Positions 28,088-43,581 of a stretch of 43,581 nucleotides of DNA are shown piece after piece. The translations under genes were made by a program, and so were the position numbers. Numbering within the stretch: position 1 is the stretch's first letter; each line of letters begins with the position of its first letter. The stretch comes from a virus: the IMG/VR virus record IMGVR_UViG_3300011445_000038, positions 1-43,581 of that record. The stretch is one strand, 5' to 3'. The notes beneath the pieces were generated by a model, which saw only the letters and a list, made by a program, of their open reading frames with translations, was not told the DNA's origin and did no database searches.

Positions 28088-28431
28088 GCCACTGCCGCCC
28101 GCCGCTGTTCCTCCCGACCACCGCGGAGCTGCTCGCTCAGGCTGACCGCGACTGCGCAGCCATGTTCGGGTCGCTCGAACGGATCCGCGACGAAGCCCGG
28201 GCCGCCCTGGCCGGCCGCGGCGTTCGCCCCGTGCAGGCGGCCCTCGCCCAGGCGTTCGTGCTCGCACGCCTAGTGCAGGACCACCTCGGCAAGCCGCCGG
28301 AGGCCATCCGCAACGCGGCCGCTGCGCTGCTCGGCCTCCTGGAGAAGGTCGGAGTCGTCCAGCTGGAAGCGCCGGCCTCGCCTGACCTGCCCTGCTGCTA
28401 CGCGGACATGCCCGCAGGAGGTGGCGCTTGA
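28084..28431 (+). CDS. Unknown helical protein
   Basis: A 115-residue, largely helical protein (ADRDCAAMFGSLERIRDEAR, QAFVLARLVQDHLGKPPEAI). ATG 28084 is chosen because it overlaps the upstream stop; the frame is open further 5' but within the preceding gene. No family recognised. The C-terminus carries AGGAGGTGG, the ribosome site of the next gene. Confidence 0.55.
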   Translation: MSHCRPPLFLPTTAELLAQADRDCAAMFGSLERIRDEARAALAGRGVRPVQAALAQAFVLARLVQDHLGKPPEAIRNAAAALLGLLEKVGVVQLEAPASPDLPCCYADMPAGGGA

Positions 28432-29075
28432 CCATCGTGCTGCAGACGTTCACCGGCCGGCGCTTCGACTACACCTCGCCGGCGGTCGATCAGATCTCCA
28501 TCCTGGACATCGCCCACGGCCTGGCGCTCCAGAACCGGTTCAACGGCCACACCGCGCTGCCCTACTCGGTGGCCGAGCACTCGGTGCGCGTGGCGCTGCG
28601 CGTGAAGCAGCTCGCCATGGACAACTGGATCGAGCAGCGCATCGGGTCCGCCACGCGGCCGCTGGATGCAGTGCGGGTGGCCCTGCTGCACGACGCCGGC
28701 GAGGCCTACGTCGGGGACCTGGTCCGGCCGCTGAAGCAGCGCGCCGACTTCGCGTCCTTCGGCTGGCTCGAGCAGCGCATCCAGCGCGTCATCCACGAGC
28801 GGTTCGACCTGGACAAGGTGGCGCTGGACTCCCACGAGCTGGTGAAGCGCGCCGACCGCGAGCTGCTCCACACCGAGGCCCGCGACCTCCTGCCCGGTGG
28901 CCCGCGCGGGTGGATCGCTGCCGAGGCGCTGCCGGCCCGCATCGAGCCGATGCCCTGGCACCAGGCGGAACGGTGGTTCCTGTTGCAGTTCGCCGAGCTG
29001 TTCCCGGTCGACCAGGAGATCGGCAACGTGCGACGGGATCTCGCGCCGGCCCAGGCCGCGGAGACCGAGTCGTGA
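28428..29075 (+). CDS. HD-domain phosphohydrolase (YfbR-like 5'-nucleotidase candidate)
   Basis: A 215-residue metal-dependent phosphohydrolase. The HD signature is His51 (AEHS), His88-Asp89 (LLHDAGEAYVGDL) and a later Asp in the helical core; the spacing fits phage and bacterial YfbR-like deoxynucleoside 5'-monophosphatases. It may shape the nucleotide pool during infection. The start is a TTG that overlaps the upstream stop (TTGA), directly after a perfect AGGAGGTG ribosome site, which makes the rare start believable. The end overlaps the phosphatase gene (GTGA). Confidence 0.8.
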   Translation: MTIVLQTFTGRRFDYTSPAVDQISILDIAHGLALQNRFNGHTALPYSVAEHSVRVALRVKQLAMDNWIEQRIGSATRPLDAVRVALLHDAGEAYVGDLVRPLKQRADFASFGWLEQRIQRVIHERFDLDKVALDSHELVKRADRELLHTEARDLLPGGPRGWIAAEALPARIEPMPWHQAERWFLLQFAELFPVDQEIGNVRRDLAPAQAAETES

Positions 29076-30175
29076 TCGGCGCGCTCCTGCTGCTGATGCA
29101 GATCACCTGGGGCCCGTTCCTCCACAACCCCCGCGACGGCGCCGTCACGGTCAACCTCGAGGCCCCCACCGCGACCGCGGCCGAGGCCTGGGTGCTGGAC
29201 GAGGCCGGCCCCACCCTGAACGTCTTCCCGCTCGCGCGCGCGGGCGGGGCCTGGCGCGGCGAGATCCAGCTCGCGCCCGGCCGGATCCACTGGTGGGCGG
29301 CACGCGCCACAGGTCCCAAGGGAGACTCGTGGTCTCCTCTGGGCGCGTGCCGCCTGCCTGTCTCTTCGTACCGGGTCGGCATCTGGGGGGACAACCAGCT
29401 CGGCGTCGCGCCGTTCCGGCAGGTCCTCGCGGGCTTCGTCGCCGAGGGCGCCGAGCTCCTGCTCGGCACCGGCGACTACATCCAGAACGAGGGCTCGGAT
29501 GCCGACTGGCGCGCGCAGTTCGCGGCGCCGATCGGGATGCTGGCCCGCTACCTGCCGCTCATGGGCTGCAGGGGCAATCACGACGGCGAAGATCAGCTCG
29601 CACAGAACAGGTGGCCGGTCCCAGGTCCGAATGCCCAGCCGGCTTCACCCGGCTGGCGTTCCTCCTCCCTGGGGCCGGCCTTTTTCATCGTGCTGGACTC
29701 CAACCAGCAGACCTACGACCTCCGGGTCAGCATGCGGCCGGGCGGTCCGCAACGGGTGTGGCTCGAGCAGGAGGTCCGGAGCGCGGCGTGCCAGGCTGCC
29801 ACCTGGCGCGTCGCGGTCTTTCACCACCCGCCGAAGACCGAGCAGTGGGACGGCGGTTGCTTCTACCCCGAGCTCACCGACTGGTCGGCGGCCATGGACC
29901 TCCTGGCCGGCGCCGGCGTCCACCTGGTGCTGAACGGCCACGCGCACAGCTACCAGCGCGGAGCCTGGCGCGGCATGGCCTGGGTGGTCACGGGTGGCGG
30001 CGGCGGATGGCTCGACCAGGCGCACTGCCGCGACCTCCCCGAGATCTCGGTCAACGCCGGCGGTGGCCGGCAGGTCCACCACTTCCTGACGCTGGACGTC
30101 GGGCCCGAGCGGCTCCTGCTGCGCGCGCTCGACCTGCAGCGGCGGGAGTTCGATCGGGTCGAGGTGCGACGGTGA
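29072..30175 (+). CDS. Purple-acid-phosphatase-like metallophosphoesterase
   Basis: A 367-residue calcineurin-like phosphoesterase. Residues 13-95 form the fibronectin-like domain typical of purple acid phosphatases (WGPFLHNPRDGAVTVNLEA). The metal-binding blocks are GDN with Asp107, GTGDY with Asp135, GNHD at 168-171, HHPP with His251-252, and NGHAH with His290 and His292. All five are intact, so an active dinuclear enzyme is expected. The hydrophobic start MIGALLLLMQITWG may be a short export signal. The GTG start overlaps the HD gene. Its place in a phage, next to an HD phosphatase, is unusual. Confidence 0.82.
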   Translation: MIGALLLLMQITWGPFLHNPRDGAVTVNLEAPTATAAEAWVLDEAGPTLNVFPLARAGGAWRGEIQLAPGRIHWWAARATGPKGDSWSPLGACRLPVSSYRVGIWGDNQLGVAPFRQVLAGFVAEGAELLLGTGDYIQNEGSDADWRAQFAAPIGMLARYLPLMGCRGNHDGEDQLAQNRWPVPGPNAQPASPGWRSSSLGPAFFIVLDSNQQTYDLRVSMRPGGPQRVWLEQEVRSAACQAATWRVAVFHHPPKTEQWDGGCFYPELTDWSAAMDLLAGAGVHLVLNGHAHSYQRGAWRGMAWVVTGGGGGWLDQAHCRDLPEISVNAGGGRQVHHFLTLDVGPERLLLRALDLQRREFDRVEVRR

Positions 30176-30399
30176 GGCTGCACCACTGCCACGCGCTCGA
30201 CTGCAGGACGCCGGTCAAGCCCGAGCTGCTGATGTGCTTGAAGCACTGGCGCATGGTGCCGAGGCACCTGCAGCAGGAGGTCTGGCGCACGTACCGCCCG
30301 GGCCAGTGCGACGACATGCAGCCGAGCGAGGAGTGGCACGCGGCTGCCGATGCAGCGATCGCCGCGGTGGCCGCCAAGGAAGCGCAGGTGCGGCGGTGA
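30172..30399 (+). CDS. Small Cys/His protein (phage zinc-binding type)
   Basis: A 75-residue protein beginning MRLHHCHALDCRTPVKPELL followed by MCLKHW. The spacing C-x4-C-x10-C-x2-H is that of a small phage zinc-finger-like family in early regions, with a W-R-x-V-P-x-x-L-Q helix after it. The GTG start overlaps the phosphatase stop. Metal binding is inferred and the function unknown. Confidence 0.6.
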   Translation: MRLHHCHALDCRTPVKPELLMCLKHWRMVPRHLQQEVWRTYRPGQCDDMQPSEEWHAAADAAIAAVAAKEAQVRR

Positions 30400-30713
30400 A
30401 GCGCGACAAGATGAAGATCGAGGACCCGCGCCTCCGCAAGATCGCGGAGCGAATCGGGACGGCATGCGACTTCTCGCTCGACAGGATCCAGGAGGACATC
30501 CAGGAGGCGGCTGAGGCCGCGGCGTTCCGGGTGCTCACGAACCTCGACGAGCCGCTCGCCTTCGAGGACCGTCCGTCCGACGTGGTGCGCGGGATGGGCC
30601 CGACGCACCCGTTCCTGACCTGCATCTGCGAACTGTGCTGCTTCCGGCGCGCGGTGGTGGAGCGCCTCGAGGAGGTCGAGCGCGATGCCGTCATGTTCGG
30701 AGACTTCGGATGA
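30396..30713 (+). CDS. Unknown early protein
   Basis: A 105-residue protein from a GTG overlapping the upstream stop. It is helical (RIQEDIQEAAEAAAFRVLTN) with a Cys cluster (CICELCCF) near residue 80. No family recognised. Its stop codon ends at 30713 and the tRNA begins at the next base. Confidence 0.55.
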   Translation: MKRDKMKIEDPRLRKIAERIGTACDFSLDRIQEDIQEAAEAAAFRVLTNLDEPLAFEDRPSDVVRGMGPTHPFLTCICELCCFRRAVVERLEEVERDAVMFGDFG

Positions 30714-30788
30714 CGCAGGGTGGAGCAGAGGCAGCTCGCCGGGCTCATAACCCGGAGGTCGCGGGTTCGACTCCCGCCCCTGCTACCA
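30714..30788 (+). tRNA. Initiator tRNA-fMet (CAU anticodon)
   Basis: A complete cloverleaf of 75 bases including an encoded CCA. The acceptor stem CGCAGGG/CCCTGCT has an unpaired first position (C1, U72). The D stem is GAGC/GCTC with A11-U24. The anticodon stem CCGGG/CCCGG has the three consecutive G-C pairs next to the loop CTCATAA, with the anticodon at 30746-30748. The T arm is GCGGG-TTCGACT-CCCGC. The 1-72 mismatch, A11-U24 and the G-C triplet are the bacterial initiator marks, and the sequence closely resembles the E. coli initiator. Phages rarely carry initiator tRNAs. Confidence 0.93.
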
Positions 30789-30936
30789 ACTTGAACGCCC
30801 GTTGTAGGGCAACAAAGGATGGCCTGGCCGTCTCCCCGCGCGAGACCGCGGGTGGCTGGGCGGATTGTGGCCCCGGGACCTGGAGCCTGAAGAGGGCGGA
30901 CCGGGGATCCCGGGGCCATCGTCTTCGCGGGGCGCC

Positions 30937-31764
30937 GTGACCACCGCGCACGACATCATGGCGTCGCTGCGTCGCGGCCCGTTCCGCGCGCCCGCGCACG
31001 TGCTCCTGGAGAACGTCGCCAACGGGACCGGCTTCAACGTCAACCGCTGGGCGGACGCGATCGCGCTTTCACTGTGGCCGTCCCGCGGGGTCTACCTGGC
31101 GGGGATCGAGATCAAGATCTCCCGAGGCGACTGGAAGCGCGAGCTCGACGAGCCCGCCAAGGCAGCCGAACTGCAGCGCTTCTGCCGGTACTGGTGGATC
31201 GCGACGCCGCCGAAGCTGGTCGAGATCTCCGAACTGCCCGAGACCTGGGGGCTCCTCGAGGTGCACGGCAAGGCGGTGCTCACGGTCCGCAAGGCGCCCA
31301 AGCTTGAGGAGCAGCCTCCGACGACGGCCATCATGGCGGCGATCCTGCGCCGGGCAGGCGAGAACTGGGAGGCCGCCACCCTGGCCCGGCTCAAAGCGGC
31401 CCGCGAGGAGCTGAAGCCGGCCCCGAGCGACCGTGAGCTCGCGGCGCGTGCGATCAGCGCCGAGCACAACGCCAAGTCGCTGCAGCGCCAACTCGATGAC
31501 ATGCGCGCGGCCGCGGACGCGTTTGAGAAGGCCTCCGGCGTGTCCCCGTTCTCCCGTTGGGACCCCGCGGGCGGCGACCCGGGCCAGCGTGGCCATGCCT
31601 TCCGGTTCACGCTGGAGCTCGAGCGCGACCTGGAGCGCTCGGCCGACACCTTCGGCCACCAGGCCACGCAGCTCGCGAAGGTCATTGACCGGCTGCGCAC
31701 ATCCCAGGCGGAACTGATCCAGATGCTCATCCGTGGCCGTCCGGCTGCGACGGAGGCGGTCTGA
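30937..31764 (+). CDS. PD-(D/E)XK-like nuclease (MmcB-type) with helical C-terminus
   Basis: A 275-residue protein. Residues 25-110 fit an MmcB/VRR-like nuclease core: NRWADAIALSLWPSRGVYLA, then GIEIKISRGDWKREL and FCRYWWIATPP, with an acidic residue before the E-x-K pair as in PD-(D/E)XK enzymes. A role in DNA repair or processing is plausible. Residues 150-275 are long charged helices, likely a coiled coil. The GTG start has no strong ribosome site and follows a 148-base gap after the tRNA. It overlaps the next gene by one base. Confidence 0.65.
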   Translation: MTTAHDIMASLRRGPFRAPAHVLLENVANGTGFNVNRWADAIALSLWPSRGVYLAGIEIKISRGDWKRELDEPAKAAELQRFCRYWWIATPPKLVEISELPETWGLLEVHGKAVLTVRKAPKLEEQPPTTAIMAAILRRAGENWEAATLARLKAAREELKPAPSDRELAARAISAEHNAKSLQRQLDDMRAAADAFEKASGVSPFSRWDPAGGDPGQRGHAFRFTLELERDLERSADTFGHQATQLAKVIDRLRTSQAELIQMLIRGRPAATEAV

Positions 31765-33820: not shown

Positions 33821-34083
33821 ACCTCGTCGAGCTCGAGGTCCAGGTCCTCAAGCTGCCGGTGCGCCGGCAGCGCTTCGTGGGCATGCTGCGCAAGCCGGAC
33901 GGCCAGGTCACGCACTGGGAGGCCTTCGGCAGCGAGAAGGCCCTCCGCGAGTGGGCGCGCCTGTGTCAGGTGGGCGGCGTGCACGCGGACGGCTCGCTGC
34001 CGTTCCAGGCGCGGATGCACGAGGGCGAGCTCCGTGCCTTCCGCATCGAGCTGGCTGAGCAGGCCGGCAAGGGGGCCCGGTGA
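33817..34083 (+). CDS. Unknown small protein
   Basis: An 88-residue alpha/beta protein from a GTG overlapping the ParB-like stop (GTGA). VQVLKLPVRRQRFVGMLRKP looks like paired strands, then WEAFGSEKALREWARLC a helix. No family recognised. Confidence 0.55.
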   Translation: MNLVELEVQVLKLPVRRQRFVGMLRKPDGQVTHWEAFGSEKALREWARLCQVGGVHADGSLPFQARMHEGELRAFRIELAEQAGKGAR

Positions 34084-34325
34084 CCGTGGCCCACGAGACC
34101 CTCTGCGCCGGCTGCGGGAAGCCCATCGTCTGGGCGGTGAACCCCGACACCGGGACGCCCATGCCGCTGGATCCGCGGCCGCCGGTCTACCGCGTGGTCG
34201 ACGGCAAGGCGATCCGCGTGCCCGACGTGCTGGTGCTGCACTTCGCGACCTGCTCGGACGCCAATCGGTTCAGCAAGGGGGCCAAGCCCAAGGCGCGGGC
34301 GCCGCGGAAGGACCTGTTCTCGTGA
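34080..34325 (+). CDS. Small zinc-ribbon-type protein
   Basis: An 81-residue protein with CAGCGKPIVWAVNPDTGTPM, then PLDPRPPVY and a closing HFATCSDANRF. The order C-x2-C ... P-L-D-P ... H-x3-C is that of a common small phage zinc-binding protein. The GTG start overlaps the preceding stop. Function unknown. Confidence 0.6.
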   Translation: MTVAHETLCAGCGKPIVWAVNPDTGTPMPLDPRPPVYRVVDGKAIRVPDVLVLHFATCSDANRFSKGAKPKARAPRKDLFS

Positions 34326-43112: not shown

Positions 43113-43334
43113 ATGGCGCTCACCGAGCAGCAGCTCAACGCGGAGATCGCGGCCCTCAGCGCGGCGATCCTCAGGGCCGGCACGGACCCGGTCGTGGAGT
43201 ATCAGTCGCCCAGCACGGGCGCCGCGAAGCGCACGCCGGTCCTCGACCTGATCGAGGCGCGCAACAAGCTGCTCTCCCTCCTGGGCTCGGTCCGGGGCGG
43301 CACCCGCAACCTCGCCACGTTCGGGGGCTGCTGA
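43113..43334 (+). CDS. gpW-like head-tail joining protein
   Basis: A 73-residue protein between terminase and portal, the gpW position in lambda (lambda gpW is 68 residues). It has the expected plan: a helix (LTEQQLNAEIAALSAAILRA), a short hairpin (DPVVEYQSPSTGAAKRTP) and a second helix (VLDLIEARNKLLSLLG). gpW seals the packaged head below the portal. The ATG is covered by the hairpin described above, and its stop overlaps the portal start. Confidence 0.75.
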   Translation: MALTEQQLNAEIAALSAAILRAGTDPVVEYQSPSTGAAKRTPVLDLIEARNKLLSLLGSVRGGTRNLATFGGC

Positions 43335-43581
43335 TGCGTTTCACCCGGGCGGTGCAGACGGCGCGCGCGGTCCTGGCTGCGATTCCGCGCGTCGCCGGCG
43401 ATGCCGCGACGCACGTGGTCGACGGCGCGGTCGAGGTGTTCTCGCCGGCGCGCGCCTGGCGGCGCCGCATGATCCGCGACGCCATGGAGCGCGACGGCAA
43501 GCGCGGCCGCGGGCGCGCGAGCCGCGGCGGCTACCGGGGCGCCACCCGCAACCGCCCGCGCGAGAACTGGCTCCCCGGGAC
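43334..43581 (+). CDS. Portal protein, N-terminal part (3' end cut by window edge)
   Basis: The first 82 codons of the portal gene, starting in the stop of the gpW-like gene (TGATG). The sequence has the helical, Ala/Arg-rich start of lambda-type portals and ends RGATRNRPRENWLPG, the usual block about 30 residues before the segment with which base 1 of this window begins. The last two bases (AC) leave the codon unfinished. Joining the window ends directly does not keep the frame, so 3n+1 bases must be missing between them. Confidence 0.8.
   Translation, partial: MRFTRAVQTARAVLAAIPRVAGDAATHVVDGAVEVFSPARAWRRRMIRDAMERDGKRGRGRASRGGYRGATRNRPRENWLPG

Follow-up and report, generated by a model that had tools for sequence, protein, structure and literature searches.

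A lone initiator-type tRNA gene, tRNA-fMet(CAU), in the genome of a lambda-like siphovirus

Phage tRNAs are usually explained by codon compensation. That account fails for an initiator tRNA that stands alone, since start codons are not among the rare ones and no host lacks an initiator. What, then, might a phage gain from a single gene of this kind at positions 30714-30788 (+ strand) of the 43,581-base viral record analysed here (the window)? A small phage with one initiator tRNA offers a clean test case for asking whether phages are held back by initiation or use the gene against defences that target the initiator.

Identity and setting of the tRNA gene

ARAGORN calls a tRNA-Met (CAT) at exactly 30714-30788 on the + strand, the sole tRNA in the window, and covariance-model scoring, a check named with the original prediction, gives 61.7 bits against Rfam RF00005 (E 4e-11; gathering score 29). 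The cloverleaf has a folding energy of -33.7 kcal/mol, 0.8 kcal/mol above the predicted minimum (-34.5 kcal/mol), and the minimum fold is an imperfect cloverleaf. The fold energy is not significant against shuffles (z -1.4), so the tRNA identity is based on the covariance-model score and on the family comparison given below.

In bacteria the textbook marks of an initiator are a 1-72 mismatch, A11-U24, three G-C pairs in the anticodon stem, the loop CUCAUAA, A73 and CCA. These determinants let methionyl-tRNA formyltransferase and IF2 recognise the tRNA and bar it from elongation. Read by position, the acceptor strands of the window tRNA are C1-GCAGGG and CCCUGC-U72, which include A4-U69 and are followed by A73 and an encoded CCA; C1 and U72 form no Watson-Crick pair. 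The D stem (GAGC/GCUC) has A11-U24 and closes a 7-nt loop, AGAGGCA. The anticodon stem CCGGG/CCCGG places consecutive G-C pairs at 29-41, 30-40 and 31-39 under the bacterial consensus loop CUCAUAA, and the variable region AGGUC and a T stem of GCGGG/CCCGC complete the structural parse. By its predicted cloverleaf with CAU, its 1-72 mismatch, A11-U24 and the G-C pairs, the sequence is a bacterial-type initiator tRNA, as had been claimed from C1-U72, A11-U24, the three G-C pairs and CCA, all of which are present. It departs from the usual initiator in the GCAGGG/CCCUGC acceptor (A4-U69) and the 7-nt D-loop. The tRNA-fMet of E. coli (metZWV/metY) shares the 1-72 mismatch, A11-U24, the three G-C pairs, CUCAUAA and CCA, and is identical in 63 of 77 aligned columns; where the window tRNA has C1xU72, A4-U69 and a 7-nt D-loop, that of E. 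coli has C1xA72, G4-C69 and 9 nt.

The record is 70% G+C and carries the gene set of a lambda-like siphovirus (portal, head protease, major head protein, tape measure and central tail fibre J), together with a terminase large subunit (TerL), an HNH endonuclease, a dNMP phosphatase and a ParB-like protein. One end reads ...NWLPG in an open frame (43330-43581) and the other starts PHASGIGDTMVDNVVGTGF in the portal frame (1-60). Both ends appear to come from a single portal gene that lacks a short piece between them, and the record therefore probably represents an almost complete genome, circularly permuted.

The tRNA follows an operon on the same strand, whose first gene listed here, with a roughly chosen TTG start, encodes an HD-domain, YfbR-like dNMP phosphatase (28428..29075; phrog_318, 1e-46; PF12917). 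It is followed by a GTG-start gene with no assigned function (29072..30175; the longer frame has no PHROGs hit), a second GTG-start gene in phrog_18063, of unknown function (30172..30399), and a gene whose longer frame matches no family (30396..30713). With these rough start choices, 4-nt overlaps join the genes that end at 29075, 30175, 30399 and 30713. There is no spacer between the TGA stop of the last gene (30711-30713) and the tRNA, and the tRNA would share the operon transcript and need processing at both ends. No promoter or terminator was recognised near the tRNA in a scan with E. coli-type consensus sequences. Downstream lies an MmcB-like gene of the phrog_5429 DNA repair family (30865..31764, +; phrog_14517, 5e-39; phrog_5429, 4e-22), for which a pattern scan found no viral relatives.

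Probable retention in a distant relative

The TerL relatives of the window phage are at most 42% identical to it in the terminase. A tRNA is present in two of the 12 whole records among them, one a tRNA-Cys and the other a tRNA-Met(CAU); the remaining ten have none, and the gene is therefore dispensable in the wider group. The record with the tRNA-Met(CAU) (L028/L379; 42.5 kb, TerL 39% identical to that of the window) likewise holds a single tRNA of the initiator type, with U1/U72 unpaired, A11-U24, CCA, the same anticodon and T stems, and 64 of 76 aligned columns identical to the window tRNA. It has U73 in place of A73, a change that could make charging or formylation less efficient.

The two phages share portal, capsid, J, terminase and four more genes at 25-43% identity and in the same circular order. 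In both, the tRNA lies between the J and 17649 genes and the 34080 gene, a small gene (34080..34325, +; phrog_5984; 42% identity to its counterpart) that marks the synteny 3' of the tRNA. Since the same position in the gene order is found in phages whose proteins are only 25-43% identical, the comparison argues for long retention of the tRNA at one place; independent gain is the alternative.

We compared 85 distinct viral initiators that have the acceptor type of the window tRNA with shuffled sequences. Positions 29-41 are paired in 98% (44% when shuffled), 50-64 in 95% (49%) and 51-63 in 98% (40%), and the helices are maintained through compensatory changes. Positions 1-72 are unpaired in 68% of the 85, with many base combinations, and pair in 32% against 29% when shuffled. 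The search pattern had preset 11-24, 30-40 and 31-39 (G-C), and these positions count as no evidence here. The kept helices and the unpaired 1-72 fit selection for an initiator over an elongator.

These comparisons bear on whether the gene is merely a passenger, brought in by transduction or recombination and of little or no benefit. Recombination often occurs at tRNA genes, and the tRNA is missing from most TerL relatives, as a passenger might be. However, the window gene is whole, bears CCA and keeps its position in the distant relative, and the compensatory changes across the viral family also speak against a passenger, which we regard as quite unlikely.

The gene could also be an attachment-site copy of a host tRNA, or could complement a host gene broken by integration. 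The latter, tRNA-dependent lysogeny (PMC10865867), predicts a lone tRNA and, like the window, involves a phage-encoded tRNA that is often alone; integrases also occur among the genes that flank a few other viral initiators. But this system needs an integrase and attP, and we found no tyrosine or serine integrase (PF00589 or PF00239, E<=1) in six frames of the window, though the two ends of the record both seem to fall within the portal gene. tRNA-dependent lysogeny is thus disfavoured. The core of the window tRNA has 17 matches in 84,980 species genomes, and none of the 17 has its C-G pair at 27:43. Because the gene is complete, not a 3' fragment, and its 27:43 pair is in none of these matches, an attachment-site origin is unlikely, all the more so with no integrase match, and we would give both forms of the idea very little weight. 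The label of a phage-encoded initiator tRNA held up, given the viral operon, the lack of an integrase match, the syntenic tRNA in a distant relative and the lack of any core with the same 27:43 pair in the 84,980 genomes.

Supply of initiator tRNA and other possible roles

On balance we lean modestly towards a functional, virus-maintained gene that would top up fMet-tRNA in infection. Host RNase P and 3' nucleases would release the tRNA from the polycistronic transcript, host MetRS would charge it and formylation would follow. The phage tRNA could in this way add to the cell's fMet-tRNA at a time when most mRNA is of phage origin, and a bigger pool would raise the capacity for initiation at ordinary AUG, GUG and UUG starts. 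The benefit might be greatest where the host has few initiator genes or a single one, or where its translation has slowed. We favour this role because of the initiator marks, the position as sole tRNA of a probably near-complete genome, the operon setting, the synteny with the distant relative and the compensatory changes. It is weakened by U73 in that relative, by the ten of 12 TerL relatives that have no tRNA, and by the lack of a recognised promoter or terminator.

The original prediction had linked the tRNA to the many GTG and TTG starts and one likely CTG start of this genome, which the phage might thereby promote. Our rough picks hold 30 ATG, 20 GTG and 5 TTG starts (n=55), i.e. ~36% GTG and 9% TTG, several of them just 5' of the tRNA. 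GTG- and TTG-rich start usage is commonplace in GC-rich phages, and in our judgement this mix looks ordinary for 70% GC. The CAU anticodon is the same in every initiator and serves all three starts, and no feature of the tRNA is able to tell them apart. For this reason we reject a preference for GTG and TTG starts as highly improbable.

The tRNA could instead replace a host initiator destroyed or blocked by defence, e.g. through VapC-type cleavage, acetylation of Met-tRNAfMet or similar attacks. Initiator tRNA is a known VapC toxin target (cited in PMC10264068), and the window acceptor (A4-U69) and D-loop are unlike the textbook host form. Phages are reported generally to do without tRNA-fMet where VapC attacks that tRNA, and nuclease-evading phage tRNAs have an altered anticodon loop (PMC10264068). 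The window tRNA keeps the consensus loop CUCAUAA and thus shows no sign of evading an anticodon nuclease, and with this loop and the three G-C pairs of the bacterial consensus a VapC-like enzyme should still cut. We consider replacement of a damaged host tRNA possible but unlikely, and supply of fMet-tRNA remains the role that we prefer.

Initiator tRNAs in other phages and their acceptor stems

Of 50,697 phage records searched with 75 bases, 332 have an initiator-like match, which in 268 lies at 80-90% identity, and the full initiator core is present in well over 100 viral contigs, a lower bound. The original prediction held that phage tRNAs are usually elongators, which may be true, but initiators are not rare among them, as these 332 records and published cases (PMC12429752, PMC9686651) indicate. 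Exactly one tRNA match was found across the whole record in 28 of 36 whole records, which had been selected for a single tRNA in the fetched stretch and are biased towards loneness. Among the largest neighbour genes of 65 distinct lone cases, the named family found most often is the terminase large subunit, and few of these genes encode integrases.

Lone tRNA-fMet genes are known in phiLM21-like prophages of Sinorhizobium, of which four of 15 carry tRNA-fMet(CAU) (PMC12429752). As in the window, the tRNA gene is single; these are prophages of a known host, and the likeness is by description, not by sequence. A tRNA-fMet is carried by another prophage (PMC10460002), and one in an Erwinia jumbo phage was proposed as a source of surplus initiators (PMC7760394, PMC9686651). 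We found no experimental study of phage initiator tRNAs in the literature. The phage initiator tRNA, also as a lone gene, is an already known kind, and the window provides a further case.

Pseudomonas phage D3 and its relatives have a tRNA-Met that shares with the window the CGCAGGG acceptor, C1xU72, A11-U24, CCGGG/CCCGG and CCA (66 of 76 columns identical). D3 differs from the window in that the anticodon loop has C33, the D-loop is 8 nt long and the phage has three further tRNAs. In both D3 (L164:20001-20076) and its relative BUCT566 (L163:44547-44622) the initiator-type tRNA has C33, not U33, in the loop CCCATAA, which is unusual for bacteria; in BUCT566 it is the sole tRNA, and that phage bears an integrase. 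The tRNA-fMet of Stenotrophomonas phage QDWS359 and a tRNA of Erythrobacter phage R6L, both mid-sized tailed phages, are also initiator-like with CCA. Unlike the window tRNA they adjoin the terminase, and the R6L tRNA has C11-G24 in place of A11-U24. This last tRNA (L165:4001-4077; C1xA72) is unannotated and lies between the terminase gene and a gene noted as portal. Another unannotated tRNA-Met lies under an ORF annotated as a transcriptional repressor in Mesorhizobium phage vB_MseS-P1 (L161:6210-6284), and mixes initiator and elongator features: A1/A72 is unpaired, but it has G11-C24 and just two G-C pairs.

In 110 viral contigs the GCAGGG acceptor is combined with the initiator core. The acceptor is also in D3, BUCT566, R6L and vB_MseS-P1, the last two of which deviate at other initiator marks. 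On the cellular side, surveyed in Bacteroidota and Chloroflexota, A4-U69 (GCAGGG) was found in none of 396 Bacteroidota and one of 301 Chloroflexota genomes, i.e. 1 in ~700. With GCGGGG as the control pattern, 13 of 41 Bacteroidota and 26 of 41 Chloroflexota genomes gave a match. The one Chloroflexota copy (L382:4839-4913) is a second initiator tRNA, which has the CGCAGGG acceptor and the C1xU72 of the window tRNA; it lies amid ordinary chromosomal genes, and a standard initiator is encoded elsewhere in the same genome. A generic scan for viral initiators, with previously collected loci excluded, gave A4-U69 in four of 89 distinct newly fetched sequences among the matches listed, and A4-U69 thus probably belongs to a minority of initiators even in viruses.

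We speculate, tentatively and with more doubt than belief, that phages propagate an initiator-tRNA lineage of their own, which moves between unrelated phages instead of being acquired from each host, and which acts as a virus-side factor of translation initiation. Its marks would be GCAGGG/CCCUGC (A4-U69), a free and mostly non-pairing 1-72 and often a short D-loop. It is only a lead, because the cellular survey covers two phyla other than Pseudomonadota and Actinomycetota, the likely hosts of many such viruses, and because A4-U69 is found in just the four of 89. We dropped the 7-nt D-loop as a viral mark, since it is ordinary in Chloroflexota initiators and present in Bacteroidales. The recurrent A4-U69 acceptor of viruses offers an inexpensive sequence signature by which further cases could be found.

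Six viral contigs hold an initiator-type tRNA ~6 bases from a phage-encoded tmRNA, the ribosome-rescue RNA; the pairs are at L116:906-1373, L117:8594-9050, L120:1587-2043, L123:5496-5964, L133:11743-12247 and L140:6219-6675.
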